Both the position numbers and the translations under genes were made by a program. 64,000 nt of DNA from Acidobacteria bacterium SCN 69-37. Its GTDB lineage: Bacteria; Acidobacteriota; Vicinamibacteria; Vicinamibacterales; SCN-69-37. Location: positions 1-64,000 of the forward strand of contig MEDJ01000025.1 of assembly GCA_001724025.1 (NCBI GenBank), written 5' to 3'. The notes beneath the pieces were generated by a model. The model was not told where the DNA came from. It searched no databases and saw only the letters and a list, made by a program, of their open reading frames with translations. This document shows, piece by piece, positions 5,478-24,909 of the stretch. The number at the start of each line of letters is the position of its first letter. Positions within the stretch are counted from its first letter, which is position 1.

Positions 5478-5517
5478 GGGCACCTCGAAGCAGACATTCT
5501 ACGGTAGTTGCTGTTAC

Positions 5518-5594
5518 GGAGCCCCGGGGCTTCAGTCCCGGGGACGGCCACGACATCGCCTCGCGGTTCCCTGGGGCTGAAGCCCCAGGGCTCC
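5518..5594. repeat. paired GCTTCAG/CTGAAGC palindromic repeat unit
   Basis: Two hairpins in tandem: GGAGCCCCGGGGCTTCAG then CAGTCCCGGGG, and CCCTGGGGCTGAAGCCCCAG followed by GGCTCC. The same design recurs at 58.4 kb (three full units) and in partial form at 48.1 and 60.2 kb. It sits between the SPFH gene and the end of galM, as expected of a REP-like intergenic repeat. Confidence 0.8.
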
Positions 5595-5647
5595 GACAAA
5601 CGCGCCGGCCACCCGCCACCGCTCTCGCCGGAATCCCGGGACGCCGA

Positions 5648-6688
5648 TCAGCCGAACCGGAATTCCGTGCGAGACCGGAACGTCCGCCCGGGCCGGAGGA
5701 TCGTGTCGGGAAAGGCCGGCTGGTTCGGCGAGTCGGGGAAATGCTGTGTTTCGAGACAGAAGCCGTGACGACGCTGATAAGGCACGCCGCCCTTGCCGAC
5801 CTGGCTGCCGTCGAGGAAATTGCCGGTGTAGAACTGGACGCCGGGCTCGGTCGTGTGCACCTCGAGCGTGCGGCCCGACACCGGCTCGACCACCCGCGCC
5901 GCAAACGCCAGGCCGTCGTCGGTGCGATCGAGCACGAAGTTGTGGTCGTAGCCGCCGGCAATCCTGATCTGTTCGTCGGCCGAGTCGATGCGCGCACCGA
6001 TGCGCACCGGACGCCGGAAGTCGAGGGCCGTGCCGTCGACGCTGCGGATCTCGCCGACAGGAATCAGCGTCGCGTCCACGGGCGTGACGTGCGTCGCCCC
6101 GAGCGTCAGCGTGTGATCCAGGATGCTGCCGGCGTCGTGCCCCGCCAGGTTGAAGTAGGAGTGCTGCGACAGGTTGATCGGCGTGGGAGCGTCGCTCGTG
6201 GCCGCGTATTCCACCGCCAGCGTGGCCGCGTCGTCCAGCGTATAGGTCACCGACACGTCGCACGTGCCCGGGTATCCCTCCTCGCCCGCGGGACTCCGCC
6301 GCTGGAAGCGGACCGCGCGTCCGGGACTCACCCACTCGCCCTGCCACACCACGCGGTCGAAGCCGTCGGGCCCGCCGTGCAGGTGGTGCGCGCCGCCGCG
6401 CGACCGCAGCTGATAGTCGTGCCCATCGAGCGTGAAACGGGCGTGCGCAATCCGGTTGGCGAACCGGCCGACCACGGCGCCCAGACAGCCGCGGTGCTCG
6501 ACGTACGCGTCGAGCGTGTCGAAGCCGAGCACCACGTCCACGAGCTGGCCGTCGGGTGCCGGCAGTTCGATCGACACGATCGCCGCACCGAAGTCGATGA
6601 GGCGGACACGGACGCCTGACGCATTCGTCAGCGTCCAGATCTGGACGGCCGTGCCGTCGGCCAGGACACCAAAGAGTTCACACGACAT
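5648..6688 (-). CDS. galM: aldose 1-epimerase (galactose mutarotase)
   Basis: This enzyme interconverts the alpha and beta anomers of aldoses such as galactose and glucose. The protein is 346 aa, the family's usual length. Conserved elements are GRFANRI near residue 75, the HHLHGGPDGF block with substrate-binding His, NLSQHSYFNLAG with the catalytic His near residue 175, and a C-terminal CLETQHFPDSPN with the catalytic Glu. There is no signal peptide, so it is cytosolic. It stands alone, divergent from the M28 peptidase gene 23 bp away. No strong ribosome binding site precedes the ATG at 6688. Confidence 0.94.
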   Translation of the reverse strand: MSCELFGVLADGTAVQIWTLTNASGVRVRLIDFGAAIVSIELPAPDGQLVDVVLGFDTLDAYVEHRGCLGAVVGRFANRIAHARFTLDGHDYQLRSRGGAHHLHGGPDGFDRVVWQGEWVSPGRAVRFQRRSPAGEEGYPGTCDVSVTYTLDDAATLAVEYAATSDAPTPINLSQHSYFNLAGHDAGSILDHTLTLGATHVTPVDATLIPVGEIRSVDGTALDFRRPVRIGARIDSADEQIRIAGGYDHNFVLDRTDDGLAFAARVVEPVSGRTLEVHTTEPGVQFYTGNFLDGSQVGKGGVPYQRRHGFCLETQHFPDSPNQPAFPDTILRPGRTFRSRTEFRFG

Positions 6689-6711
6689 CGAGAGGCATTG
6701 TAGTCTTGCCC

Positions 6712-8292
6712 ATGCCGCGCGTCCCTGCCTCCCGCATCGCCATCATCGCCACACTCGTCGCGATCGCCCTGCTCCCGCTCGCCGCGCAGACGCGCGAGGA
6801 ACCGGTGGATCTGGCGGCTATCCAGCGGCTCAAGGACGAAGGCTTCACCCGCTCGCGGGTCATGGACACCGTCTCGCGCCTGAGCGACCTCCACGGCCCG
6901 CGGCTGACCAACTCGCCGAACATGCACCGCGCCGCCGAGTTCGTGCGCGCACAGATGAAGGCGTTCGGTATCGACAACGTCCAGTTCGAAACCTGGGGCC
7001 ACTTCGGCCGCGGCTGGGAGAACGAGCGGACGACGATCCACGTCACGGCCCCGACGCGCTGGCCCGTGGTCGGCTTCTCGAAAGCCTGGGCGCCGGGCAC
7101 GAACGGCCCGGTATCCGGTCGCGTGGTCTACGCGCCGATCACCGCGGCGTCACAGTTCGACGAGTACAAGGGCACGCTCGGCGGCACGTGGGTACTGCTC
7201 TCGCCTGCACGGCAGGTGTCATCGCTCTTCACGCCGCCCGCACGCCGCTACACGGACGATGACCTGAAGGGACTGGCGACGCAGCCGATCCCGACCGTCG
7301 TGCCCCCGACGCCGCCCGGTCCGACGCAGCCGCCCGTGTCCGCCGAGGACTTCCGGCGCCAGCGGATGGCCTTTCTCGCCGCGGAGGGCGCGGCCGGCGT
7401 CATCGAGGTCTCACCCGGCACGCGCGGCGACAACCTCACCGTCCTCGTCTCCGGTCCCGCCGCCGGCGAGGGCACGCGCGAACCCGGCGATCCGCCCCTG
7501 CTGCCGCACCTGGTGTTTGCCGCCGAGCACTACCATCGCATCGTCCGGCTTCTCGCGATGCAGGAACCCGTGACGCTGGAGGTCGACGTACGCAATCGCT
7601 TCCACGACGAGACGCTCGACACCTACAACATCGTGGCGGAACTGCCCGGCACCGACAAGGCTGACGAGATCGTGCTGATCGGCGCGCACTTCGACAGCTG
7701 GCACGGCGGCACCGGCGCCACCGACAACGGCGCCAGCTCGGCCGTGATGATGGAAGTGCTGCGGATGCTGAAGGCAACCGGGCTGCCGCTGCGACGCACC
7801 GTGCGCATGGTGCTCTGGACCGGCGAAGAACAAGGACTGCTCGGCTCGCGCGCGTACGTGACCCGACACTTCGGCGGTCGCGCGAACACCGCGATCACGC
7901 CCGCACACGCGAAGGTGTCGGCCTACTTCAACCAGGACAACGGCGCCGGCGGTTATCGCGGTCTCTACCTGCAGGGCCACGAGGCGGTCCGCCCGATCTT
8001 CCAGGCCTGGATGGCGCCGTTCGCGGATCTCGGCATGACGACGCTCAGCATCCGCAATACGGGCAGCACCGATCACGTGGCCTTCGACGAAGCGGGCCTT
8101 CCCGGCTTCCAGTTCATCCAGGATCCGATGGACTACGGCACGTGGACGCACCACACGCAGCAGGATCTCTACGAGCGCGTCGATCCACAGGACGCGATGA
8201 AGAACGCGGTCATCCTCACGTCGTTCGTCTACCACGCGGCCAACCGCGACGAGATACTGCCGCGCAAGACCGCAGCGGCTGTCGCACCGTAG
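6712..8292 (+). CDS. secreted M28-family zinc metallopeptidase
   Basis: A 526-aa exported peptidase. The ATG at 6712 is followed by a clear signal peptide (IAIIATLVAIALLPLAA, cleavage after AQ). An inserted protease-associated region occupies the middle (about residues 130-280). The di-zinc M28 core follows: GAHFDSW (His ligand), GATDNGA (bridging Asp), WTGEEQG (catalytic and ligand Glu), NQDNGAG (Asp ligand) and STDHVAFDEAG (His ligand). All five metal ligands are present, so it should be active, probably as a periplasmic or extracellular aminopeptidase. It is a monocistronic gene divergent from galM. Confidence 0.92.
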   Translation: MPRVPASRIAIIATLVAIALLPLAAQTREEPVDLAAIQRLKDEGFTRSRVMDTVSRLSDLHGPRLTNSPNMHRAAEFVRAQMKAFGIDNVQFETWGHFGRGWENERTTIHVTAPTRWPVVGFSKAWAPGTNGPVSGRVVYAPITAASQFDEYKGTLGGTWVLLSPARQVSSLFTPPARRYTDDDLKGLATQPIPTVVPPTPPGPTQPPVSAEDFRRQRMAFLAAEGAAGVIEVSPGTRGDNLTVLVSGPAAGEGTREPGDPPLLPHLVFAAEHYHRIVRLLAMQEPVTLEVDVRNRFHDETLDTYNIVAELPGTDKADEIVLIGAHFDSWHGGTGATDNGASSAVMMEVLRMLKATGLPLRRTVRMVLWTGEEQGLLGSRAYVTRHFGGRANTAITPAHAKVSAYFNQDNGAGGYRGLYLQGHEAVRPIFQAWMAPFADLGMTTLSIRNTGSTDHVAFDEAGLPGFQFIQDPMDYGTWTHHTQQDLYERVDPQDAMKNAVILTSFVYHAANRDEILPRKTAAAVAP

Positions 8293-8326
8293 CGTCGTCG
8301 CCACCGCCGCGGCCCGGGCACGCTCG

Positions 8327-9016
8327 TCAGTGGGCCAGTTTCTCGAGGCCGGCGCGATCGAGGATGACCAGGCGGCGGCCCTCCGATCCGAGGATCCCGT
8401 CGCTCGTCCACTGCGACAGCGTCCGGCTCACCGTGTAGAGCGTCGTGCCCGTCAAGTCGGCCAGTTCCTGGCGCGTCAGCGACTGCATCAGGACGACGGC
8501 GCCCGCGTCGCCGGGACGCCCGCACTGGCGCATGAGGCGCAGCAGCGCGTGCGCCAGCCGCTGGCCGACGCGCGCCGTCGACAGTTCGTGGACCCGCGTC
8601 AGCGCATCGGTCATGTGCAGGGCCATCTCGCGCATGATGTTCGCGCGAACCTGCGGCGTCCGCTCGAACAGCGTCTTGAGCGCACTGGCCTGCCATCCCC
8701 ACACCCGCGTGGCCTGCGCCGCCAGCGCCGTCACCGGATACACCGCGTCGTCGAGTGCGACCACGCCGCCGAAGGGATCGCCGGGGCCGACGAAGCGGAC
8801 GATCACCTCGTGCCCGTCGGCCGTCCCCTGCACGACCTTCAGGAACCCGGAGGCCACGAGGAAGAACTCGGTGGCCGGTTCACCCTGCCGCGCGACCACG
8901 GCGCCCCGCGGATAGTCGTGGATGCGGGCAGACGCCGTCCATGCCTGTCGATCCTCGGCGGTCAGACCGTCGAACAGGCGCGAACGCAGAACCTCGGATG
9001 CCGGTACGGACGCCAT
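8327..9016 (-). CDS. Crp/Fnr-family transcriptional regulator (first copy)
   Basis: A 229-aa regulator with a cyclic-nucleotide-binding-like beta-roll (about residues 15-130, PRGAVVARQGEPATEFFLV), a long dimer helix, and a C-terminal winged helix (SLTRQELADLTGTTLYTVSR). It has no N-terminal Cys cluster, so it is not an oxygen-sensing FNR with [4Fe-4S]. It is probably a DNR/NnrR-type or redox/NO-responsive paralogue, and the neighbours favour NO. It lies 65 bp downstream of the 12-TM membrane protein gene on the same strand and is likely the last gene of the cupin operon. Its likely operator is one of the two palindromes described at 10.7, 16.9 and 25.8 kb. Confidence 0.92.
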   Translation of the reverse strand: MASVPASEVLRSRLFDGLTAEDRQAWTASARIHDYPRGAVVARQGEPATEFFLVASGFLKVVQGTADGHEVIVRFVGPGDPFGGVVALDDAVYPVTALAAQATRVWGWQASALKTLFERTPQVRANIMREMALHMTDALTRVHELSTARVGQRLAHALLRLMRQCGRPGDAGAVVLMQSLTRQELADLTGTTLYTVSRTLSQWTSDGILGSEGRRLVILDRAGLEKLAH

Positions 9017-9081: not shown

Positions 9082-10347
9082 CTAGCGGGCCATCTGCATG
9101 AGATAGACGAGGTAGCGGGCGCCAACCACGACGCCGCCCAGCAGCACGATCGCCCCGAGACGAATCGACAGCGGGTGCCCTGCCGCCAGACCCAGGGCCA
9201 GCCACGGGACGCCAATCGTCCACAGCGCGAAGATCGGTTTGGCGAACCGGGCCGTGGGCAGTTGGTTGGCCGGCCGCGCCGGCGGCTGACCGCCAAGGGC
9301 CGCCATGGCCCGGTAATAAGCGTAGAGCGGCACCAATCGGCCCTGGATACCCACCACGATCTGGGCGATGAACCCCACGAGGCCTGCCACGCCGTACACC
9401 CACGCCACGCGGATCTGGGCGGGACCGGCCGACATCAGCGCAAGTGTCAGACCCAGCCCGGCCGCCACGATCAACCACAGCAGCGCCATGTGCGTCTGCC
9501 AGGTGGACCAGTCACGCGACGGCAGGGCCGGCGGCCTCGGCAGCCGCTGCCGCACGGCCGCCCGCATGTTGCTGACGAAACTCATCAGGCCCGCGACGAT
9601 CACGAGCGCCCCGACGGGCAGCCAGGCCGGAGCGACGATCCAGGCGGCCACCAGGCCGATCAGCCCCAGTTCGAGCAGCCAGGCGCTGACCGCCAGACCC
9701 GAGCCCGTCGGCATCTTCGCGGGCAGGAACATCGGCACGAGCCGATACGCCAGCCCCACCACCATCATCACCGGCCAGCCGATGGCCGCCAGGTGCGCGT
9801 GCGCGTACGCCGCCTCGACCGGCGGCCAGCCGAAGAGGCCGTAGGCCCTGTCGAAGCCGATCGCCATCCCCACGCCGGCGGCAAGCGTCATGTTCACGAA
9901 AGCCAGCAGGACGTGCAGGAGGACCGGCCACGGCGCCGTGGCGCGACGCATGCCGAGGATGGCACGTCCGCCCTGCCACACCACGGCGAACAGCACGAGG
10001 CACGCCGACCACGCCATCAGCCCGTACTGCCCGCTCCATGCCTGCGTCACCATGCCGGTGGTGCCGGCCGCAAAGGCGACGAACGCGATCCAGTCCATGG
10101 CGCGTACCGGCAGCGGCAGGCCCAGGGCGAGCGGAGCCACCACGTAGAACGCCCCGAGGATCGATCCCGAGATCCACGCAATCGTTACCAGATGCACGAC
10201 CGCGACCATGCGTGGGTGCAGAAAGTAGCCGCCCGGCAGCGACGGCTCGACCGCCAGCACCAGGCACGCCAGCGCCAGCCCCAGGTGCGCCCAGACGAAA
10301 TACGCCATCGGCAACGCCGACGACGGCGTGAGCGCCTGACGGTTCAT
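9082..10347 (-). CDS. 12-TM heme-copper-oxidase-subunit-I-like membrane protein
   Basis: A 421-aa polytopic protein with about twelve hydrophobic segments. Histidines sit in helices in an oxidase-like pattern: HPRMVAVVHLVTIAW near residue 45, AYAHAHLAAIGWPV near 190, and WQTHMALLW near 290. This resembles NnrS and cbb3-subunit-I-like proteins found in NO and denitrification clusters, but it lacks the full set of catalytic ligands. I infer a heme- or copper-binding membrane protein involved in the NO response or in oxidase maturation rather than an oxidase. The start codon overlaps the cupin gene's stop by four bases, so the two are translationally coupled. The exact family needs a profile search. 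Confidence 0.65.
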   Translation of the reverse strand: MNRQALTPSSALPMAYFVWAHLGLALACLVLAVEPSLPGGYFLHPRMVAVVHLVTIAWISGSILGAFYVVAPLALGLPLPVRAMDWIAFVAFAAGTTGMVTQAWSGQYGLMAWSACLVLFAVVWQGGRAILGMRRATAPWPVLLHVLLAFVNMTLAAGVGMAIGFDRAYGLFGWPPVEAAYAHAHLAAIGWPVMMVVGLAYRLVPMFLPAKMPTGSGLAVSAWLLELGLIGLVAAWIVAPAWLPVGALVIVAGLMSFVSNMRAAVRQRLPRPPALPSRDWSTWQTHMALLWLIVAAGLGLTLALMSAGPAQIRVAWVYGVAGLVGFIAQIVVGIQGRLVPLYAYYRAMAALGGQPPARPANQLPTARFAKPIFALWTIGVPWLALGLAAGHPLSIRLGAIVLLGGVVVGARYLVYLMQMAR

Positions 10348-12973: not shown

Positions 12974-13033
12974 GGAGTGGCGCAACAGCGTCGTCCGCGT
13001 CGCGGCCAGTCACGATGGGAGTCGTGCGTCGGA

Positions 13034-13521
13034 TCCTGAAACCGTGGAGGTGTGGTTTCAAGCGATCGCACCTGTGAACCATGGAGGCACGGAGAGCAGG
13101 GAGATTTCATTTCAATCACCACTCCCTGTCCTCCCGATCTCCATGGTGTCCAAGCGATCACCCTGCCCGCGCAGCCGCCAGGCGCAGTCGAGCGGCTCGT
13201 GTCGATCCTGTCGTCGTCGAATCCAGTGAACCATGGAGGCACGGAGCGCAGGGAGATTTCATTTTCAATCACCACTCCCTGTCCTCCCTCCCTCCATGGT
13301 GTCCAAGCGATCACCCTGCCCGTGCAGCCGCCACGCGCAATCGAGCGGCTCGTGTCGATTCTGCCGTCGTCGAATCCTGAACACCGTGAAGGCGTGGAGA
13401 GCAGGCAGAGCGCGTCCCAATCACCACTCCCTGTCCTCCCGACCTCCATGGTGTTCAAGCGACCGCACCTGCCCGCGCAGCAGCCAGGCGCAGTCGAGCG
13501 GCTCGTGTCACACGACTGCCG
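13034..13521. repeat. 152-bp tandem repeat array, three units plus a remnant
   Basis: Units begin at 13074 (GTGAACCATGGAGGCACGG), 13226 and 13377, spaced 152 and 151 bp. A short remnant precedes them at 13034-13073. Each unit carries an inverted pair, CCATGGAGGCACGGAG near its start and CTCC...CCATGGTGT in the middle, followed by a conserved AGTCGAGCGGCTCGTGTCGA segment. The array fills the gap between the convergent CopD-like and SCO genes and ends exactly at the SCO stop codon. The reading frames through it are not protein-like. Confidence 0.85.
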
Positions 13522-14415
13522 CTACAGTGCCCTGACAGCGGCCACGATCGTGTCGGCTCCGCCCGGGAGCGCGTAGGTAATGCGCCCGTCGCGGTTGATG
13601 ACGTAGACCAGTGATGGGTGCGACAGGTCTCCCGTCCGTTCGTTGCGAATACGGGGGATCCTCCACGCATTCAGGACACGCTCGACCGCCATCGGCTCGC
13701 CCGAAAGCACGCGCGCGTCACCGGTCAGCCCCCATGCCTGCGCCATCGCCCCGAGCCGGCTCGGCGTATCACGCCAGGGGTCGAGCGTCACCACGAGGAC
13801 AGCAGGCGCTTCCGTCGTCAGTCTGGCGGCCGCCGCATTCACATCGGCCACGACCAGCGGACAGACAGTCTCGCAGTGCGCGAAGGCGAACGTCACGAGC
13901 ACGGGACGACCGCGGAACGCCTCGAGCGTGACCGTCTCCCCCTTCTGGTCGATCAACGACATGGCCGGCGGCGCGTCGTCGATGCGGGTCAGCGCGGCCG
14001 CGCCGTCCCGTGAGGCCCCGGCCGAAAACGTTTCGACGCCAGCTCCCGAGACGCGCACGACGACACCGCCGAGCCCCGCGATGAGCGCAGCAGCGACCGC
14101 GCCCGCGGCCACCTGGCCGGGGACGCGACTCATGAGGCGGGACAATCCGGCGCGAAGATCGGCCGGCCACACGGCCGCCAGCAGCGCAACCATGCCGATT
14201 GGCTGGCCGATCAGCAGGATCCACCCACCTGCGTGCGGCAGACCGTCGCGCGTCGCACCGAAACAGACCTCGCGCGTGCGCACGTACCACTCCGGCGCCG
14301 CGGCCTCCACGGGCCACAGCGCCAGGGCCCACCACGACGCTGTCACGAGTCCAATCAGGAACAACGCCGCGACGGCTGCCGAACCTCGCCTGGTCGTCGA
14401 GGGTGCTGAAGTCAT
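13522..14415 (-). CDS. SCO1/SenC-family copper chaperone with N-terminal membrane domain
   Basis: A 297-aa protein. The first about 130 residues form membrane helices (AALFLIGLVTASWWALALW, GGWILLIGQPIGMVALLAAV, AAGAVAAALIAGLGGVVV). The C-terminal half is the thioredoxin-fold SCO domain with the copper-binding CETVC (CxxxC) pair and the distal His in LSHPSLVYVI. SCO proteins insert copper into the CuA centre of subunit II. Its start overlaps the stop of the subunit I gene by four bases, so it is translationally coupled and probably dedicated to this enzyme. The extra N-terminal helices are more than the single anchor most SCO proteins have. Confidence 0.9.
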   Translation of the reverse strand: MTSAPSTTRRGSAAVAALFLIGLVTASWWALALWPVEAAAPEWYVRTREVCFGATRDGLPHAGGWILLIGQPIGMVALLAAVWPADLRAGLSRLMSRVPGQVAAGAVAAALIAGLGGVVVRVSGAGVETFSAGASRDGAAALTRIDDAPPAMSLIDQKGETVTLEAFRGRPVLVTFAFAHCETVCPLVVADVNAAAARLTTEAPAVLVVTLDPWRDTPSRLGAMAQAWGLTGDARVLSGEPMAVERVLNAWRIPRIRNERTGDLSHPSLVYVINRDGRITYALPGGADTIVAAVRAL

Positions 14416-16151
14416 CCAATCCTCCAGAGGAACGAGAGCACCTTCCAGTTCGCGTAGAAGTAGACGACGAACGCGGCCAGGAAGACGAACACCAGGATGA
14501 TGGTGCCCGGCGCCGGGCCCATGATGCCGCGCGACTTATCGTGCAGCTCGGCGTTGCGCGCATCGACGTCGGGCGCGTGCACGGGCGGGTGCGTCAGCCC
14601 CTGCGGCACGCCGACCATGGCCACGCCGCGCGTGATCGTCTCGAGCTTCTCACCGAAGAAGACCGACTTGACCGCAATCGCCACGAAGATCAGCGCGCCG
14701 GTCGCCGCCGTCACGCCGCCGAGCGCCACGACGGCCAGGATCACGTCCACGATCGGGTTGAACTGTACGTCGTACGGCGCCCCGCTGAAGCTGATGTCCC
14801 AGTGCCGACGCGGCACGCCGAAGCTGCCGGCGAACGTCATCGACAGCGTGAACACCAGCATGCCGCCGGCGAACAGGTACGGCTGGATCTTCGCCAGCTT
14901 CCAGAACGCGACCTTCCGCTGGAACACCAGGGGAATCAGGTAGTAGGTCGCGCCCATGAACGCCATCGCCGTGCCGCTGGCCACCGTGGAGTGGAAGTGC
15001 CCCGGCGACCGCAGCGTGTTGTGCACGATGATGTTGATCTGCTCGGTGCCGATCGTCACGCCGGTGATGCCGCCGACGAAACCGAAGACCACCACGGAAA
15101 AGACGAGCGAGCTGAAGCCCGGATCGCCCCACGGCGCGCGGCGCAGCCAGTCGAACATGCCCTGCGTGTATCCTCGCAGCCGCATGCCGAGTTCCATCCC
15201 GGCCGGCACCGTGAAGCCGTGGATCATCGACGCCAGCACGGCCATGTACATGAAGTAGCTGGTATTGACGATCTTCCACGCTGGTCCCATGCCCGGGTCC
15301 ACCAGCAGGTGGTGCGCCGAGGCCATCGAGATGAACAGGATGTAGAGGACGAACGCCGACCGGCTGATCTTCTCGTTCAGCACGACCGACCCGACCGTCA
15401 GCGCACCGAGCATGTACCAGATGGCCACCATCGCCGCGACGTTGATCTGCTGCGACGAGTGTCCCAGCGCCCACCAGATCATCCGGTAGACCTGCGGATC
15501 CACCTCCATCAGCCCGAGCGACCACAGGTAGGTCGGGATGTAGATGGCCGCGCCGTGGACCAGCGTGATGACCGCGATGATCGCGGCCGTCATCGCGCCG
15601 TAGACCACCAGCGGCACCGATCCCTCGTACCGCCGCTCGCGCTTCGCCACCACGAGGTTCGCAAAGAAGATCCCGACCGTGATCAGCGCGCCGACGGCAA
15701 ACAGGATGACACCGAGGTAGAAGTTCGGATCGGCCCGCAGCGGGACGTACGACGTGTAGAGCACGTCGGCCCGGCCGGACCACATCATCCACTCGACCAT
15801 CAGGGCGCCGACCAGCATGAGGCCGTACGCCGCCCATGTCGTCCGGACCGCGGTCTGCCGCGCATTGAGCAGCGCCGTGCTCGCGAACACCAGCACGGCC
15901 ATCTCGAAGAAGATGATGAAGAAGATCAGCATGCTCATGCCGTGGACGCCGAGCACGCGATAGAACCAGTCCGCCGGCAGCAGGTGCACGGCCTGCCAGC
16001 GCGTCAGCACGATCATGATGGCCGCGATCGCGCCGACGAGCAGGGCGACGACCGAACTCACGGCGTGGATCTTGACCAGCCGTTCTCCGGCCAGATCGAT
16101 ACGGCGGCCCGTTGCCGGGCAGGTCCTGAACACAGGATCCGCAGTCGTCAT
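14412..16151 (-). CDS. B-family heme-copper subunit I lacking the active-site Tyr; probable NO reductase
   Basis: A 579-aa membrane protein with about 13-14 helices. The metal ligands are all present: low-spin heme His70 (GVHGM) and His387, high-spin heme His385 (SPGHFHS), and CuB ligands His231 (GHSSQQ), His280 and His281 (SAHHLLVD). Oxygen reductases have His-x-x-x-Tyr at the first CuB ligand, giving the crosslinked Tyr. Here that position is Gln235. This loss, together with nirK, NirV-like and Crp/Fnr genes nearby, points to one of the B-family-derived NO reductases (I recall the eNOR/sNOR classes) rather than a ba3 oxygen reductase. It is the third gene of the operon small subunit, CuA subunit II, subunit I, SCO, with four-base overlaps on both sides. 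Confidence 0.8.
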   Translation of the reverse strand: MTTADPVFRTCPATGRRIDLAGERLVKIHAVSSVVALLVGAIAAIMIVLTRWQAVHLLPADWFYRVLGVHGMSMLIFFIIFFEMAVLVFASTALLNARQTAVRTTWAAYGLMLVGALMVEWMMWSGRADVLYTSYVPLRADPNFYLGVILFAVGALITVGIFFANLVVAKRERRYEGSVPLVVYGAMTAAIIAVITLVHGAAIYIPTYLWSLGLMEVDPQVYRMIWWALGHSSQQINVAAMVAIWYMLGALTVGSVVLNEKISRSAFVLYILFISMASAHHLLVDPGMGPAWKIVNTSYFMYMAVLASMIHGFTVPAGMELGMRLRGYTQGMFDWLRRAPWGDPGFSSLVFSVVVFGFVGGITGVTIGTEQINIIVHNTLRSPGHFHSTVASGTAMAFMGATYYLIPLVFQRKVAFWKLAKIQPYLFAGGMLVFTLSMTFAGSFGVPRRHWDISFSGAPYDVQFNPIVDVILAVVALGGVTAATGALIFVAIAVKSVFFGEKLETITRGVAMVGVPQGLTHPPVHAPDVDARNAELHDKSRGIMGPAPGTIILVFVFLAAFVVYFYANWKVLSFLWRIG

Positions 16152-16726
16152 TGCGCACCTCCGGCCGGTGTCGTCACCGGTCCGTCCTCGACGATGACGC
16201 GGCCGACCATGACGTGGTGGCCGATCCCGCAGAACTCGTTGCAGATGATCCGGAAGTCACCCGACGCATTCGGCGTGACCCGGAGCCCGTAGTCGTAGCC
16301 CGGCACGACCTGGAAGTTGATGTTGATGGGATACAGCGAGAACCCGTGGTTCACGTCGAGCGACGACAGGTGCAGCGTGTATTCGACGTTCTTCTGCAGC
16401 TTCAGGATCGGCATCCACTGGAACGAGAACGCCGCCAGATAGATGTCCGATCCGGGCGGCGGCGCCACGATCGGCATGCCGCGGTCATCGTCCACCTGAT
16501 ACTGCGTGATGAACTCCTGGACGCGCTCCATGAAGGCCGTCGGTTCGACCCGGCTGCGGATCCCCGACGGGTTCTGGCCGCCCTTCCAGTGCCAGATCGG
16601 CATCATCGCGAAGAGAATCAGGCACCAGACGAAGGCAATCGACACCCAGACCTTTTCCGCCTTGTGTGCCGGCTTCCACCACGCCGCCGGCGGGCACTCG
16701 AGTCCCGTATGTGTTTCGGTCGCCAT
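16148..16726 (-). CDS. CuA-containing subunit II of the heme-copper reductase
   Basis: A 192-aa protein with one N-terminal transmembrane helix (VWVSIAFVWCLILFAMMPIW) and a periplasmic cupredoxin domain. All CuA ligands are present: His127 (VNHGFS), Cys162, Glu164 and Cys166 (CNEFCG), His170 and Met173 (HHVM). It should accept electrons from a soluble cytochrome c or cupredoxin and pass them to subunit I. It starts just after the 56-aa subunit and overlaps subunit I by four bases. The length and single helix fit B-type (ba3-like) subunit II. In an NO reductase setting, a CuA subunit distinguishes this enzyme from cNOR and most qNORs. Confidence 0.93.
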   Translation of the reverse strand: MATETHTGLECPPAAWWKPAHKAEKVWVSIAFVWCLILFAMMPIWHWKGGQNPSGIRSRVEPTAFMERVQEFITQYQVDDDRGMPIVAPPPGSDIYLAAFSFQWMPILKLQKNVEYTLHLSSLDVNHGFSLYPININFQVVPGYDYGLRVTPNASGDFRIICNEFCGIGHHVMVGRVIVEDGPVTTPAGGAQ

Positions 16727-16735
16727 GAAGTCGCC

Positions 16736-16906
16736 TCAGGGGAGCGGGGCCGGCGGCAGCGTCTGGATCTCCCAGAGCCCCCAGCCGGTATAGAGCAGCA
16801 GCATGATCACCAGGCCGGCGCCCAGCAGCAGGAACATGTTGTCGAACAGGCGCTGACCGAGCGGAATCGGATCGTCGGGCGAGGAAGCGTCATCGGGGTT
16901 GGCCAT
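16736..16906 (-). CDS. 56-aa single-TM accessory subunit of the reductase
   Basis: A short gene with ATG at 16906 and TGA at 16738-16736. The acidic, Pro-rich N-terminus (MANPDDASSPDDPIPLGQRL) is followed by one hydrophobic helix (MFLLLGAGLVIMLLLYTGW) and a short Pro-rich tail. It lies 9 bp upstream of subunit II, in the position where ba3-type oxidases carry a small one-helix subunit (IIa). It is the first gene of the operon and starts 35 bp from the TATGA palindrome at 16941-16956. No sequence family could be recognised; the assignment rests on size, topology and position. Confidence 0.75.
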   Translation of the reverse strand: MANPDDASSPDDPIPLGQRLFDNMFLLLGAGLVIMLLLYTGWGLWEIQTLPPAPLP

Positions 16907-18364: not shown

Positions 18365-19966
18365 ATGTTCCGTCGACTCGAACAGACTTCGCTCGCCCTG
18401 CTCACCCGCGCCGACGCCCTCTGCACCCGTCTGTATGGCTGGCGCTTCAACCCGCTCTACCAGAGCGGCACCATCGTCGTCGCGCTGTATCTGACGCTCG
18501 TGGCCACGGGCACCTGGCTGCTGCTGTTCTACCGCGTCGGTGCGCCGTGGGAGTCGGTCGATCGCATCACGGCCGATCCCTGGCTCGGCAACTGGGTGCG
18601 CGGCCTCCATCGCTACGCCACGGACGCCGCCGTCGTCTTCACGGCCATCCATGCGATGCGGATGTTCGCGCAGGGCCGCAGCTGGGGCGCGCGAAGCCTG
18701 GCGTGGATCAGCGGCGTCCTGCTCGTCGTGCTGATGCTGCTCGCAGCGTGGAGCGGTTACGTCATGGTGTGGGACGTGCTGGGCGAACGCCTGGCCCGCG
18801 AAGGCGCCCGCATGGCCGACGCCCTGCCGATCCTGTCGGAGCCGGTCAGCCGCGCATTCAACGGCGAACGGCCGGTGCCGAGCGTCTTCTTCTTCATCAC
18901 GCTCTTCGCGCACATCGGCATCCCGCTTGGAATGGGCGCGATGTTCTGGATTCACGTCAAACGGCTGCAGCGGCCGGCCATGCTACCCCCGCGCCCGCTG
19001 CTGTGGGGCGTGGTCGGTCTGCTCACGGCCGTGGCGCTCGTGCGTCCGGTCATCATGGCGCCGAAGGCGAATCCCTTCGCCCAGACCGCACACATCCCGT
19101 TCGATCTGTTCGTCGCGTTCTGGGTCCCGCTCACCGACGCGTGGTCGGGCGGTGCCGTCCTGCTGATGCTGATCGGGACGTTCGCGGCCCTGCTGATCTG
19201 GCCGGTGCTGACAACGCGCCGTGGCGCGGAGGCGGCCGCCCTGCCGCCCTCGTTCGTTGACGAGGACCTCTGCACCGGCTGCACGCAGTGCACGATCGAC
19301 TGCCCGTACGGGGCCATCGAGATGGTGCCGCGGAAGGACGATCGCCCGACGCTCGTGGCGCTCGTCGATCCGTCGCTCTGCGTCAGTTGCGGGATCTGCG
19401 CGGGCTCCTGCCCCCCGATGGGCGTCGGACCGGCAGGCCGGACCGGGCGCGATCAACTGGTCGGCGTCCAGGCATTCCTGAAGCAGACCCCACGCCCGGC
19501 CACCGGCGTCGTCGTCATCGGCTGCGATCACGGCGCCGGACGATTCGCGCACGCCATCGAAGCCTCGGGTGCGGCGTTCCAGGGCGTTTCCTGCGCCGGC
19601 AACCTGCACACGTCCGCCATCGAGCGGCTGTTGCGAGGCGGCGCCGACGGCGTCCTCATCATGGCGTGCCATCCCCGCGACTGCTGGAATCGCGAGGGGC
19701 CACGCTGGCTGTCCGAACGCATCTATCACGATCGCGAAGCTGAGCTGCAACCCCGGGTCCCGCGCACCCGCGTGCGCGTGACGCACGTGTCCGCCACGGA
19801 ACAGCCGGACGCGCTCGCGACGCTGGAGAGATTCGCGGCCGACGTGTCGCACCTGCCAGACGACCGCACCGTCTACGCCCGCGGCAACTGGTCACAGGAC
19901 GACACCGGTCTGGCCGAAGAGGCCGTCGAGTGCGTGCCGCCAGAGCCCGAGGAGGTGCGAAAGTGA
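18365..19966 (+). CDS. fusion: diheme cytochrome b, two [4Fe-4S] ferredoxin and MvhD/FlpD-like domains
   Basis: A 533-aa fusion. Residues about 1-285 form a cytochrome b/b6-like membrane part with two bis-His heme sites, His82/His96 and His183/His197, each pair 14 apart as in bc-type cytochrome b. Two ferredoxin motifs follow: CTGCTQCTIDCP (Cys303, 306, 309, 313) and CVSCGICAGSCP (Cys339, 342, 345, 349). Residues about 380-450 resemble the methyl-viologen-reducing hydrogenase delta subunit (MvhD/FlpD): IGCDHGAG, VSCAGNLHTSAIERLL, GADGVLIMACHPRDC. No Rieske or cytochrome c1 gene accompanies it. I infer a quinone-interacting module that exchanges electrons with a cytosolic iron-sulfur partner. 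Its stop overlaps the next gene. Confidence 0.82.
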   Translation: MFRRLEQTSLALLTRADALCTRLYGWRFNPLYQSGTIVVALYLTLVATGTWLLLFYRVGAPWESVDRITADPWLGNWVRGLHRYATDAAVVFTAIHAMRMFAQGRSWGARSLAWISGVLLVVLMLLAAWSGYVMVWDVLGERLAREGARMADALPILSEPVSRAFNGERPVPSVFFFITLFAHIGIPLGMGAMFWIHVKRLQRPAMLPPRPLLWGVVGLLTAVALVRPVIMAPKANPFAQTAHIPFDLFVAFWVPLTDAWSGGAVLLMLIGTFAALLIWPVLTTRRGAEAAALPPSFVDEDLCTGCTQCTIDCPYGAIEMVPRKDDRPTLVALVDPSLCVSCGICAGSCPPMGVGPAGRTGRDQLVGVQAFLKQTPRPATGVVVIGCDHGAGRFAHAIEASGAAFQGVSCAGNLHTSAIERLLRGGADGVLIMACHPRDCWNREGPRWLSERIYHDREAELQPRVPRTRVRVTHVSATEQPDALATLERFAADVSHLPDDRTVYARGNWSQDDTGLAEEAVECVPPEPEEVRK

Positions 19967-20526
19967 CGCTCCCGCTCAATCGATTCCCTGGCCTTGTGGT
20001 GGCCGCGGTCGGTGCCTGTGGCCTGGCGTGGCTGTCGCAGATACCGATCGCATCAGATCGGGCGTCCGATGCGGTGCTGCGCCTGACATGGCGCGCGCGG
20101 CCGGAGCGGATCGAACACTGCGTGACGCAGAGTCCCGAGGCCCTCGCCGCCCTGCCCCCGCACATGCGCCAGACGACGATCTGCGAAGGCATCAACGCGT
20201 CGTATCGCCTGGTGGTCCAGCACAACGGCGTCGTGGTGGCCGATCAGGTCGTCGCCCCCGGCGGCCTGCGTCGCGACCGTCCGCTGTACGTGTTCCGCGA
20301 GATTACGCTGCCGCCCGCCGACGACGCCGCGATCGTCGTCACGTTCACGCGCGTCGAGGCCGGGTCCGGCGATGCGGAGCCTGGACAGAGTGACAGGGAC
20401 ACGATGCGCGAATCCGTGCCGGCGTCACTCACGTGGGAACGGCACCTCCGGTTTGCCCCCGGCCAGGTCCGGATCGTCAGCTACGACCCCGAGCGGCGCG
20501 CGCTGTTCGAGGTCGTTCCCGGATGA
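19963..20526 (+). CDS. exported or membrane-anchored protein of unknown function
   Basis: A 187-aa protein starting with GTG at 19963 inside the stop of the cytochrome b fusion (GTGA overlap), with GAGG a few bases upstream, so it is tightly coupled. One N-terminal hydrophobic segment (LVVAAVGACGLAWLSQIPI) serves as signal or anchor. The rest is predicted soluble, with Cys residues at TWRARPERIEHCV and TTICEG that could pair. I do not recognise a family. Position suggests an accessory subunit of the cytochrome b/ferredoxin module facing the periplasm. Its last about 100 bp overlap the convergent GxxExxY gene. Confidence 0.7.
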   Translation: MTLPLNRFPGLVVAAVGACGLAWLSQIPIASDRASDAVLRLTWRARPERIEHCVTQSPEALAALPPHMRQTTICEGINASYRLVVQHNGVVVADQVVAPGGLRRDRPLYVFREITLPPADDAAIVVTFTRVEAGSGDAEPGQSDRDTMRESVPASLTWERHLRFAPGQVRIVSYDPERRALFEVVPG

Positions 20527-20940: not shown

Positions 20941-21139
20941 GCTGACCGGCCGATGCAAGCGGCGATCCGGACCGGGCCACACCGTGGAGAACATCGATCG
21001 GCAGGATTTCCTGCACGTTGGCTTCAAGATCTGACTCCGCCCGCCTGGAGCGCCTTTCCGCGCGGTGCCGAACTACCCGCCGCCGACGCCGTTCACGCGG
21101 TGACGGGGAACCATGGAGCCTCGGTCGTGGGTGCGCACG

Positions 21140-21823
21140 ATCACCGTGGAGGAAATTGAGGACATGGAGGACGGCAAAGGTTCCGCTCGGCTTCAGGGTC
21201 CGCAACGACCCAAAGGCCCCATGTACCCCCTGCTCTCCATGGTTCAGAGCCCGCGCCCCGGCGTGCCGCGTTCGGAATCAACCATGGAGGACATGAAGAA
21301 CATGGAGGCCGGTAAAGGCTCCGCGCGGATTCGGGACTCGCAACACCCCAAAGGCCCCATGTGCCCCCTGCTCTCCATGGTTCAGAGCCCGCGCCCCGGC
21401 GTGCCGCGTTCGGAATCAACCATGGAGGACATGAAGAACATGGAGGCCGGTAAAGGCTCCGCGCGGATTCGGGACTCGCAACACCCCAAAGGCCCCATGT
21501 ACCCCCTGCTCTCCATGGTTCAGAGCCCGCGCCCCCGGCGTGTCGCGTTCGGAATCAACCATGGAGAACACGAAGGACATGGAGACCGGTAAGAGGCTCA
21601 GCACGGCTTCAGGGCCCGCAACGACCCAAAGGCCCCATGTACCCCCTGCTCTCCATGGTTCAAAGCCCGCGCCCCCGGCGTGTCGCGTTCGGAATCAACC
21701 ATGGAGGACATGAAGAACATGGAGGCCGGTAAGAGGCTCAGCACGGATTCAGGACTCGCAACACCCCAAAGGCCCCATGTGCCCCCTGTTCTCCACGGTT
21801 CAAAGCCCGCGCCCGCGCCACGG
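21140..21823. repeat. 138-140-bp tandem repeat array, five units
   Basis: Units start at 21143 (diverged), 21281, 21419, 21558 and 21698, spaced 138, 138, 139 and 140 bp. Each begins AACCATGGAGGACATGAAG and contains CCCCTGCTCTCCATGGTT, so AACCATGGAG and CTCCATGGTT face each other inside every unit. The 139- and 140-bp spacings break any reading frame, so the ORF across it is spurious. The array ends at the stop codon of the SCO gene at 21824, just as the 13-kb array ends at the other SCO gene. Confidence 0.88.
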
Positions 21824-22477
21824 TCAGTCGCGGGCGCGGCGCACGGCGGCCACGAGAGCTCCACCGTCCGGCCCCACGCCTACCTGCCGATGACGGACGA
21901 CGCCCTCCCCATCGATGACGAAGATCATCGCGGAGTGCGCGATCTCCCCGTTTTCCTCCAACTGGTATCGCACCCCCAGCACGGCCGCCAGCGTCCGCAC
22001 GTCGTCCTCTGACGCCGCCAGCAGCCGCCAGCGCGCGGTGTCGAGCTGCTGCGTCCGCGCAAACGCCCGCATCGCCTCCGGCGTATCGCGGCCGGGGTCG
22101 AGCGAGAACAGCGTGTAGCGCACGTGACCGTCCACGCCCGCAAGTTGCCGCTCGATCGCCTTCATCTGCTCGGTCACCATGATGCAGACCGAGTCACACG
22201 AGGTGTAGACCATTGCCGCCAGCATGACCGTCCCGCGCAGGTCGGCCAACCGCAATTGCCGGCCCTCCTGATCGACCAGCGCCAGGTCGAGATCGAAGAT
22301 CGAGCCCTGGTCGATCGCTCCCGCTGCCGCGGGCAGTTCATGTGCGCCGGTGGCTCGCGCGTCAGCCGGCAGGGGCGACTCCGCCTGGCGGCCGCACGCG
22401 CCCCCAGACGCGATCGCCACAGTCAGCAGGCCGCCGACGAACCAGCGCGCCGATCCCGGGAACATGTTGCCGGTCAT
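21824..22477 (-). CDS. SCO1/SenC-family copper chaperone (second copy)
   Basis: A 217-aa protein with one N-terminal hydrophobic segment (WFVGGLLTVAIASGGACG), possibly a lipoprotein signal, though the box before Cys is atypical. The SCO thioredoxin-like domain has CDSVC (CxxxC) near residue 95 and the distal His in IAHSAMIFVI. It is probably periplasmic and delivers copper or reduces cuproenzyme thiols. The ATG at 22477 overlaps the stop of the FGE-family gene, making it the last gene of the crp-nirK operon. It differs from the first SCO protein in lacking the extra membrane helices, so the two may serve NirK and CuA respectively (inference). Confidence 0.9.
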   Translation of the reverse strand: MTGNMFPGSARWFVGGLLTVAIASGGACGRQAESPLPADARATGAHELPAAAGAIDQGSIFDLDLALVDQEGRQLRLADLRGTVMLAAMVYTSCDSVCIMVTEQMKAIERQLAGVDGHVRYTLFSLDPGRDTPEAMRAFARTQQLDTARWRLLAASEDDVRTLAAVLGVRYQLEENGEIAHSAMIFVIDGEGVVRHRQVGVGPDGGALVAAVRRARD

Positions 22478-23325
22478 CGCGTCCCTCCCCCGTTCTTCAC
22501 GCCGCGGAACCCCAGGCTCCCGATGCTGTATCGCGCCTCGAGGCTGCTGCGGAACGCGTAGCGCATGAACGCCGGGTAGTTCTCGAAGTCTGAAGCCCCC
22601 ATGGCGCCGCTGCCGCAATACAGCGTCCGATCCAAGGCCGAGTCGCCGCGCGACTCGCCCGTGACCAGCGCCGAGTTGAAGTCGAGGGTCCACTCCCACA
22701 CCAGGCCGTGCACGTCGCGCACGCCGTAGACCGTGCCGGCCCCCGACCCGACAGCCGGCAGGGGGACGGGCGCCGATCGCGCGTACCAGGCACGCAGACG
22801 CCCCAGGAACGTCGCGTCGCGCGAGGCATCGCGATCCGTCTCGCTCGCGGCCGCCACGTATTCCCATTGATCGACGGTCGGCAGATCTTTGCCCCGGGCC
22901 CGCAGGTAGGCGCGTGCGGCAAACCAGGAGACGTTGACGACGGGGCTCCCGGGCGGAGCGAGCGGCCCCAGTTCGAGATCGCCCTTCCAGTGTGCCAGGT
23001 AGTTGTCGTCGACGAACAGCCGCTTCGCCTGCGAGCGGCGCCACTCGGGATGCTGGTGGACGAATGCCAGGAACTGCGCGTTCGTGACCGGGTATTCGTC
23101 CATGTCGAACGCCGCCACCCGACGCCGCGCGCTCTCGCGTGCGGCGTCGGCGGCCGCGTCATCGGCAGCCGTCGGCTGCCGATAGAGCGGCGCGTAGCTG
23201 CCGGCCGGGACGCGAATCATCCCGGGCTCGCCCTCGCGGGCCAAGCCGGGGCGCGGGCCCGGGAGCAGGAACAGCAGGCCGGCCATCGCGGCGGCGATGG
23301 CCGGCAGGCGAACGGGATAGTGCAT
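22474..23325 (-). CDS. exported FGE/SUMF1-family protein, NirV-like
   Basis: A 283-aa protein with a signal peptide (IAAAMAGLLFLLPGPRPGLA) and a formylglycine-generating-enzyme-like (FGE-sulfatase) domain: RVPAGSY, MDEYPVTNAQFLAFV, NVSWFAARAYLRARGK, LPTVDQWEYVA, GLVWEWTLDF and the closing GSLGFRGVK. In denitrifiers, nirK is often followed by nirV, a member of this family with no known catalytic role. Position directly downstream of nirK and export to the periplasm fit a NirV-type partner. A 42-bp perfect palindrome separates it from nirK. Its stop overlaps the SCO start. Confidence 0.85.
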   Translation of the reverse strand: MHYPVRLPAIAAAMAGLLFLLPGPRPGLAREGEPGMIRVPAGSYAPLYRQPTAADDAAADAARESARRRVAAFDMDEYPVTNAQFLAFVHQHPEWRRSQAKRLFVDDNYLAHWKGDLELGPLAPPGSPVVNVSWFAARAYLRARGKDLPTVDQWEYVAAASETDRDASRDATFLGRLRAWYARSAPVPLPAVGSGAGTVYGVRDVHGLVWEWTLDFNSALVTGESRGDSALDRTLYCGSGAMGASDFENYPAFMRYAFRSSLEARYSIGSLGFRGVKNGGGTR

Positions 23326-23436: not shown

Positions 23437-24909
23437 TCAGTGCGCCGCGATGGCGGCCGTCGGCGGCGGTCCGCCGCGGCGGATCGCCGCGACCTCTTCC
23501 GGCGTCACGTCATGTCCGGCGTTCTGCCACTGACTGTAGACGTATGTCAGCGCATTCGCGACGTCATCGTCCGACATGCCCAGCGCAGGCATGACGCTGT
23601 TGAACTGCTGCCCGTTCACTGTCACGGGCCCGGTCAGGCCGAACAGGACGGCCGCGATGGCGCGTGGTTTGTCCGCGTTCAGGAAGTCCGAACTGGCCAG
23701 CGGCGGGAACGCAGCCGCCACACCCTGCCCTTCACCCTGGTGACAGGCCGAGCAGGTCGACGCATACACGCGCTGCCCACGTGCGATCCGCTCGGCCCGG
23801 TTCGCCGCCGGAGCCTGCACGGGGGCCGCATCCGTCATCGACTGGATCGCACTCCCTTCGGGCAGGTAGACCTCGTCGGCCTGCTTGCCGGAGTAGACCA
23901 CGGCGTTCTCCGGTCCGTCGACGTTGATCGTGCCGAGCGCCCCCTTGTTGAACGCCCGGAAAATCGAGTGGTCCACCAGGATCAGCGAGCCGGGCACCTC
24001 GACCTTGAATTCCACGACGGTGGCCCCGCCGGCGGGCACCAGGGTCGTCTGCACGTTGCGATTGACGACGCCCGTGCCGCCCTCGTGCAGGACGCGGTCG
24101 AAGATCTCCCCGATTACGTGGAACGAGGACACCAGGCTCGGCCCGCCATTGCCCATGAAGATCCGGACCGTCTCGCCAACCGACGCTTTCAGTCCGTTGT
24201 CGCCGCCGATCGCGCCGACCGATCCGTTGAACACCACATAGTCGGGCTTCTCCTCGATGGCCTTCTCCATGCTGAACGGCTGCAGCCCCGGCTCGCCGTA
24301 TCGGCCGGCCGTGTAGAACTCGCCCTGCATCACGTAGTACTCGCGATCGACGGGCGGCAGGCCGCCGGCCGGCTCCACCAGGATCAGGCCGTACATCCCG
24401 TTGGCGATGTGCATGCCGACAGGCGCGGTCGCGCAGTGGTAGACGTACAGCCCGGGGTTCAGCGCCTTGAACGAGAACCTCGACGAGTGGCCGGGCGCCG
24501 TCAGCGACGCCGCCGCACCGCCGCCCGGACCGTTCACGGCGTGCAGGTCGATGTTGTGCGGCATGCGGCTCGACGGGTGGTTGTTGAGGTTGAACACCAC
24601 CTCGTCGCCCTCACGCACACGGATGAACTTGCCGGGAACCGATCCCCCGAACGTCCAGAACGTATAGTCGACCCCGTCGGCGAGCCGCTTCACCACCTCG
24701 AGGACCTCGAGGTTCACCACGACCTTCGTCGGGTATTTCCGCGTGATGGCCGGCGGGACGTTCGGCGCGTCGGTCAGGACGGCCACCTCCTCGCCACGCA
24801 CGGTCTGGCTCACGCCCGACGAATCCGCACGCCCACACCCCGCGGCGACCACGGCTGCCAGCATCGCGGCGATCCCGCCCGTTATCCATGAATTCCTCGT
24901 CGCCGTCAT
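23437..24909 (-). CDS. nirK: copper nitrite reductase with C-terminal cytochrome c domain
   Basis: A 490-aa periplasmic enzyme that reduces nitrite to NO. It has a lipoprotein-type signal (AAVVAAGC). Two cupredoxin domains follow. Type 1 copper ligands are His118, Cys159, His167 and Met172. Type 2 ligands are His123, His158 and His314. The catalytic Asp121 and His264 ([10 protein letters not shown]) are present. A linker of about 35 residues leads to a class I cytochrome c domain with CSACH (386-390) and a likely axial Met in VMPALGM. The fused heme domain allows direct electron delivery. It follows the Crp/Fnr gene by 22 bp and precedes the NirV-like gene. Confidence 0.96.

Follow-up and report, generated by a model that had tools for sequence, protein, structure and literature searches.

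Which reaction is catalysed by a heme-copper enzyme that keeps all the metal ligands of an oxygen reductase and carries a glutamine where the cross-linked tyrosine should stand, and which proteins serve it? The question is raised by a minus-strand operon in a stretch of 64,000 nucleotides (the window, positions 1 to 64,000 of contig MEDJ01000025.1, numbered 25 in a genome of 4.43 Mb) from Acidobacteria bacterium SCN 69-37. The operon comprises, in this order, a 56-amino-acid open reading frame (ORF), subunit II, subunit I and, as its last gene, a SCO-like protein. On the evidence of these sequences it encodes, with a probability of about 0.88, eNOR, a nitric oxide (NO) reductase related to the B family of heme-copper oxygen reductases. 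Since the glutamine signature has been published and eNOR has been characterised as an NO reductase in the literature, the enzyme is, judged by its residues, a new member of an already described family. A cytochrome b-FlpD fusion encoded divergently from the operon is conserved with eNOR and apparently undescribed, and this partner module is the part most worth following, as the enzyme itself is known in kind.

A glutamine-type heme-copper enzyme

Subunit I contains the motif G230-H231-S-S-Q-Q235 and retains the heme ligands H70, H385 and H387 and the CuB ligands H231, H280 and H281, roles that were assigned by alignment with ba3 oxidases and their residue labels. The glutamine at the tyrosine site, the six histidines and the complete CuA site of subunit II had been described in an earlier note made from the sequence, and all have been confirmed; none of the six CuA ligands (H127, C162, E164, C166, H170 and M173) is missing, and each is kept in 83-85 of 85 aligned rows. 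Glutamine does not stand at the tyrosine site by chance, as it is found there in 80/80 loci of the genome_contigs set and in 4/4 plasmid loci (Defluviimonas, Thermomicrobium roseum and Thermus), all of them fetched by similarity to the query subunit I. In a reference alignment of 53 subunit I rows, this column holds Gln in 32/32 rows of the Gln type and Tyr in 18/18 rows of the Tyr type, and at 19 positions, including E83, Q234, N237, Y299 and H311, the Gln rows all share a residue that no Tyr row has. The column of the cross-linked helix VII tyrosine of cbb3 oxidases (column 274) is Tyr in the cbb3 of the host genome (L003), and Ile in 31 and Leu in one of the 32 Gln rows. A tyrosine supplied from another helix, a possibility raised by the earlier note, is therefore ruled out at this one known alternative position. 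As a separate observation, subunit I of two Thermus plasmids (L089 and L090) has HFK for HFH, with lysine at the usual low-spin heme histidine, which would mean either that the heme ligand has changed or that the copy does not function.

Hemp and Gennis 2008 and Murali et al. 2024 are said to be the sources of the eNOR family. In PMC8756737, Gln is the mark of eNOR, against Tyr in oxygen reductases, Glu in cNOR and qNOR, Asn in sNOR and CuANOR and Asp in gNOR, and Table A4 gives Asn for sNOR/bNOR; PMC11388526, citing Murali et al. 2024, counts eNOR among four biochemically characterised NOR families. With Q235 and a complete CuA site, the window enzyme has neither the helix VI tyrosine of B-family oxygen reductases nor the helix VII tyrosine of the C family (cbb3), and it differs equally from the Asn type of sNOR and bNOR and from the cNOR/qNOR type, which has Glu at the site and no CuA. 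Of the two classes named as candidates in the earlier note, eNOR is upheld by the glutamine and sNOR is rejected by it for 14412-16906, though a second locus of the host genome does have Asn.

The locus shares with described eNOR the glutamine, a CuA subunit II encoded directly upstream of subunit I, a predicted single proton channel (PMC8756737) and a reported link to NirK, the two being in one operon in Ardenticatena (PMC4653789); the 56-amino-acid subunit, the SCO protein and the cytochrome b-FlpD partner are absent from the excerpted eNOR descriptions compared. As regards the proton channel, E24 of subunit II, aligned with the K-path entrance glutamate of ba3, is found in 84/84 rows, and among the Gln rows Y246, S308 and H311 are kept in 32/32 and T314 in 28/32, with Ser in the other four, so that by residue presence alone a K-path-like channel is indicated. 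The ba3-type oxidases, which are the nearest solved structures by sequence (26-28% identity over about 463-484 aligned residues), have in common with the window enzyme the six metal ligands, the CuA subunit and the K-path Tyr, Ser, Thr and entrance Glu, but the latter has Gln for the cross-linked Tyr and falls in a separate clade. His311 stands in place of Thr312 of ba3, and Val242 in place of Tyr244. The scores of subunit I with the NCBIfam oxidase models are far below cut-off.

A phylogenetic tree of subunit I was calculated under LG+C20 PMSF from 51 rows hand-picked from about 100 (L126 and L096 were dropped, one being a fragment and one an odd row). The 32 Gln rows fall together in a single clade with 100/100 support, apart from the Tyr-type oxygen reductases, and the 15 Tyr-type B-family rows are its sister group (98/97). 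The relationship to ba3-type oxidases that the earlier note suggested is supported by the sister-group position; descent of the Gln clade from oxidases goes beyond the tree, whose rooting does not prove it. The deep root is unsure because the far outgroups stand on very long branches. The window subunit I and an Acidobacteriota relative are nested inside Gemmatimonadota sequences (98/91 and 100/99), which suggests that eNOR was transferred from one phylum to another, subject to the caution that genome bins always call for. The nearest relative by eNOR is the Acidobacteriota metagenome-assembled genome ZC4RG22 (87% identity).

Several points weigh against the assignment to eNOR. It depends on one diagnostic residue and on clade structure, and the tree panel contains no named purified eNOR, such as that of Rhodothermus, and no cNOR, qNOR, gNOR or bNOR. 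Y270 and Y299 are invariant in 32/32 Gln rows, and one of them could serve as a non-canonical tyrosine. The structural model of subunit I has a mean confidence (pLDDT) of 79.8, falling to 52-68 in blocks covering residues 221-240 and 281-290 around the active site, and was too weak there for the active-site modelling that the earlier note had proposed. When this model was compared with solved structures, Z was at most 39.0 for A-family chains and about 36-38 for chains of the ba3 type; as both rank together, the fold alone cannot assign the family.

The other genes of the operon accompany eNOR widely. Counts out of 86 refer, here and below, to eNOR loci whose fetched sequence holds a homologue (E<=1e-5) at any position; many of these loci are cut by contig ends. 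By this measure the 56-amino-acid ORF and the SCO protein recur in most loci (Table 1), and T40, W42, G43, E46, L55 and P56 of the former are almost invariant. The SCO protein has a CETVC motif, and its SCO1/SenC domain lies at residues 153-278, behind three predicted N-terminal helices. Both this protein, with its extra helices, and the small subunit belong to the operon as previously noted, except that the SCO gene (13522-14415) lies outside the interval 14412-16906 then given. Overlaps of 4 bases between subunits II and I and between subunit I and SCO are the pattern of a translationally coupled operon.

The cytochrome b-FlpD module

The fusion protein joins a b-type cytochrome to two [4Fe-4S] motifs and a FlpD domain. 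Its model has a pLDDT of 90.3, and residues 14-294 match the cytochrome b of bc complexes (best Z 24.8, rmsd 2.6, 259 aligned residues); the FlpD part was hardly covered in this comparison with the PDB, whose rows span mainly 14-294. The four heme-ligand histidines of bc-type cytochrome b are present and conserved among homologues (H82 in 72/72, H96 in 72/72, H183 in 71/71 and H197 in 69/69), the eight cysteines of the [4Fe-4S] clusters are almost invariant, and the FlpD cysteines 387, 410, 435 and 440 are kept in 64-66 of 65-66 homologues. The PEWY motif of the bc-type Qo site is lacking, the corresponding region reading PFDLF, with Asp247 in 61/69. With six membrane helices, the protein would have its Fe-S domains facing the cytoplasm. 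The protein thus resembles the cytochrome b of bc/b6f complexes and the ExtP/ExtQ-type b cytochromes in the bc-type fold over 14-294 and in the two bis-His heme sites, and differs from them in its fusion to two [4Fe-4S] clusters and FlpD; its score with the NCBIfam ExtP model is 79.4, far under the cut-off of 290. The gene that follows encodes a membrane-anchored protein with one predicted helix and no family match in Pfam and NCBIfam; in 9 loci, this protein and the cytochrome b-FlpD protein form a single fused chain.

A homologue of the fusion protein was found in 74/86 eNOR loci and one of the periplasmic-domain protein in 61/86. At genome level, the fusion is present in all seven Acidobacteriota genomes with Gln-type eNOR versus 2/290 others, and in 58/60 Gemmatimonadota genomes with eNOR versus 3/189 others; the glutamine was read individually in the seven Acidobacteriota, and the 60 Gemmatimonadota were called at a subunit I identity of at least 60%, the residue not being read. 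The Fisher values are 1e-12 and 2e-50, and shared ancestry is ignored in them. In 56/58 of the Gemmatimonadota genomes, both genes share a contig and are no more than 12 kb apart. The exceptions are few. Both Acidobacteriota matches outside eNOR genomes are weak, with an identity of 31% in G207 and of 27%, plus one stop, in G130, and two of the three in Gemmatimonadota are at the ends of short contigs (G505 and G469, contigs of 5,270 and 6,036 bases); only G437, with the fusion on a 240-kb contig and no detected eNOR, is a true exception. In this genome the genes for the cytochrome b-FlpD protein, the periplasmic-domain protein and ctaA are consecutive (L147, 4858-8170). Conversely, eNOR occurs without the module in G447 and G503. 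A further case is G530 (Gln motif GHGTQQ, 44% identity), which entered the counts as a non-eNOR genome; if taken as eNOR, it changes the figures to 58/61 and 3/188.

On the eNOR plasmids of Thermus and Thermomicrobium the module was not found, and it was absent from 4/11 when the genomes behind eleven eNOR loci were searched. From its absence on these plasmids it seems to be confined to part of the eNOR family. In the literature searched, to which the main eNOR paper (Murali 2024) did not belong, no link between a FlpD-cytochrome b protein and NO reductase was found, and the nearest match is a table entry in PMC8756737, RME88945.1, an ORF whose domains are given as C1 cytochrome, cytochrome b6 and FlpD. 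Most likely, the module is an electron link that connects cytoplasmic carriers or quinone with the eNOR chain. More broadly, the chances seem evenly balanced that a large eNOR lineage, spread over Gemmatimonadota, Acidobacteriota, Bdellovibrionota, Myxococcota and others, has a dedicated and undescribed membrane module (six-helix b cytochrome, cytoplasmic [4Fe-4S] and FlpD [2Fe-2S] domains, periplasmic Cys/His/Met domain) through which NO reduction is connected with low-potential electrons of the cytoplasm and/or with the quinone pool, or which supplies cofactors.

Proposed function and alternative explanations

In the proposed mechanism, electrons from a periplasmic carrier would enter the CuA site of subunit II and pass through the low-spin heme (H70/H387) to the heme (H385)-CuB (H231/H280/H281) site, where the reaction 2 NO + 2 H+ + 2 e- -> N2O + H2O would take place; Gln235 stands where oxygen reductases need a tyrosine for O-O cleavage. 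Protons would probably come from the cytoplasm through the K-path-like channel (E24 of subunit II, T314, Y246, S308 and H311), and turnover may for this reason conserve energy. The SCO protein probably inserts copper. The substrate could be supplied by the NirK of the same region, whose gene, noticed in the earlier note, is real (above the TIGR02376 cut-off) and lies about 7 kb from the eNOR operon, and the N2O could pass to NosZ, a full-length homologue of which is encoded on contig 11 of the host genome (448.8 bits, below the cut-off of 625).

This chain from nitrite to N2 and the retained K-path residues argue for energy-conserving denitrification over a role of eNOR mainly in NO detoxification, for example under micro-oxic conditions. 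The latter is nevertheless the best placed of the alternatives, if on the unlikely side, since no NarG over cut-off was found in the host genome and regulators of the Rrf2 type occur near eNOR in 38/82 loci (L007-L088; one member confirmed by Pfam). In Thermus, Rrf2 and DUF542 genes follow eNOR; these neighbours are consistent with NO sensing, and reduction of NO by eNOR under micro-oxic conditions is stated in PMC11388526.

A little less probable is that the cytochrome b-FlpD protein acts with its periplasmic partner in maturation, for instance in providing heme A or copper, and not in electron input. Such a maturation system would fit the gene order of G437 and G469, where the fusion gene is followed by that of the periplasmic-domain protein and then by ctaA, the SCO gene adjoining the module in the same-strand arrangement and the conserved Cys, His and Met of the periplasmic domain. 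A CtaA homologue was found in the fetched flank of 13/86 loci and gave no match in the other 73, where many flanks are short, and the four heme-ligand histidines with the twelve conserved Fe-S cysteines are better suited to electron transfer.

That the fusion gene is a passenger merely co-transferred with eNOR is improbable. The patchy distribution of eNOR in both phyla, counts that ignore shared ancestry and the eNOR plasmids without a fusion gene speak for it; the two gene arrangements (48 opposite-strand and 23 same-strand loci), the near absence of the fusion from genomes without eNOR and the similar tree distances of both proteins speak against it (Mantel r 0.80 over 66 rows, with 0/2000 permutations as high, shared ancestry again being ignored).

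Finally, a B-family oxygen reductase that lost or functionally replaced its active-site tyrosine and still reduces O2 can be dismissed as very improbable, for in spite of the six ligands, CuA, most of the K-path, the invariant Y270 and Y299 and the ba3 oxidases as nearest solved structures, Gln is invariant across a separate clade, the cbb3-site tyrosine is Ile or Leu, the gene is near nirK and the genome already has two A-family oxidases and one cbb3.

The assignment to eNOR bears on gene surveys. NO reducers are overlooked because general libraries score the genes of eNOR as those of cytochrome c oxidase, and eNOR was detected in 60/249 Gemmatimonadota and 7/297 Acidobacteriota genomes. Genomes with nir and nosZ and without nor are reported for these phyla; according to PMC12569097, they make up 13% of the Gemmatimonadota having denitrification genes, in a survey whose reference set included eNOR. 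The family has also been employed in the surveys of PMC8114936 and PMC13274419. Should the module prove to be a true partner of eNOR, the enzyme is supplied with electrons or assembled in another way than is currently assumed.

Gene map and neighbouring genes

Table 1. Position and main features of the genes discussed, in the numbering of the window.
Feature	Position	Strand	Evidence or remark
Crp/Fnr-family regulator	8327-9016	-	PF00027, PF13545
Heme A synthase CtaA	11471-12508	+	NF045570, 219.5 bits, below 550 cut-off
SCO1/SenC-like putative copper chaperone, 297 aa	13522-14415	-	PF02630, 88.9 bits; homologue in 80/86 loci
Probable eNOR subunit I, 579 aa, Gln235 for cross-linked Tyr	14412-16151	-	PF00115, 203.3 bits
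Probable eNOR subunit II, 192 aa, complete CuA site	16148-16726	-	ba3 subunit II match, 4.6e-19
56-aa one-helix putative subunit, adjoins subunit II	16736-16906	-	homologue in 82/86 eNOR loci; helix predicted
Cytochrome b-2[4Fe-4S]-FlpD fusion, 533 aa; proposed eNOR partner	18365-19966	+	divergent from eNOR operon
Membrane-anchored protein with a domain predicted to be periplasmic; start codon probably GTG 19963	19930-20526	+	conserved C64, H78, M79, R80, C85
Second SCO-like protein, nirK cluster	21824-22477	-	PF02630, 72.9 bits
FGE-sulfatase-domain protein	22474-23325	-	PF03781, 100.9 bits
NirK, copper nitrite reductase carrying a cytochrome c at its C-terminus	23437-24909	-	TIGR02376, 344.6 bits (cut-off 296.3); PF00034

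A NirK homologue was found in the fetched flanks of 11/86 eNOR loci. In the nirK cluster of the window, the FGE-sulfatase-domain protein is NirV-like by its position. The Crp/Fnr-family regulator is a possible candidate for NO or low-oxygen control. Beside it, a 421-residue multi-helix protein (9082-10347, minus strand) shows a trace PF00115 match (E 0.0016, below cut-off) and might, by position and appearance, be NnrS-like.

Over the PF00115 cut-off, the host genome contains two A-family subunit I genes, one fused cbb3 and one of the Asn type, and no more besides the eNOR gene. The Asn-type gene belongs to a second NOR-like locus (L109, G000:C1:47000-61000, positions 5483-8777), in which subunit II has a COX2 domain and is fused to cytochrome c, subunit I has Asn at the tyrosine site (HLLVN) and a SCO gene is present; by its Asn, the enzyme resembles sNOR. 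A SCO/SenC neighbour, a trait of sNOR, is shared by this locus and the window operon, whose enzyme also has CuA and the B-family relationship in common with sNOR and is set apart from it by Gln in place of Asn.

In the eNOR clusters of Defluviimonas and Thermomicrobium (L087 and L088), a heme o synthase gene directly follows subunit I, a hint that heme o or a may be used by eNOR. Two intergenic stretches of the window (13000-13500 and 21100-21800) contain ORFs that repeat identical short phrases, as from an intergenic repeat.

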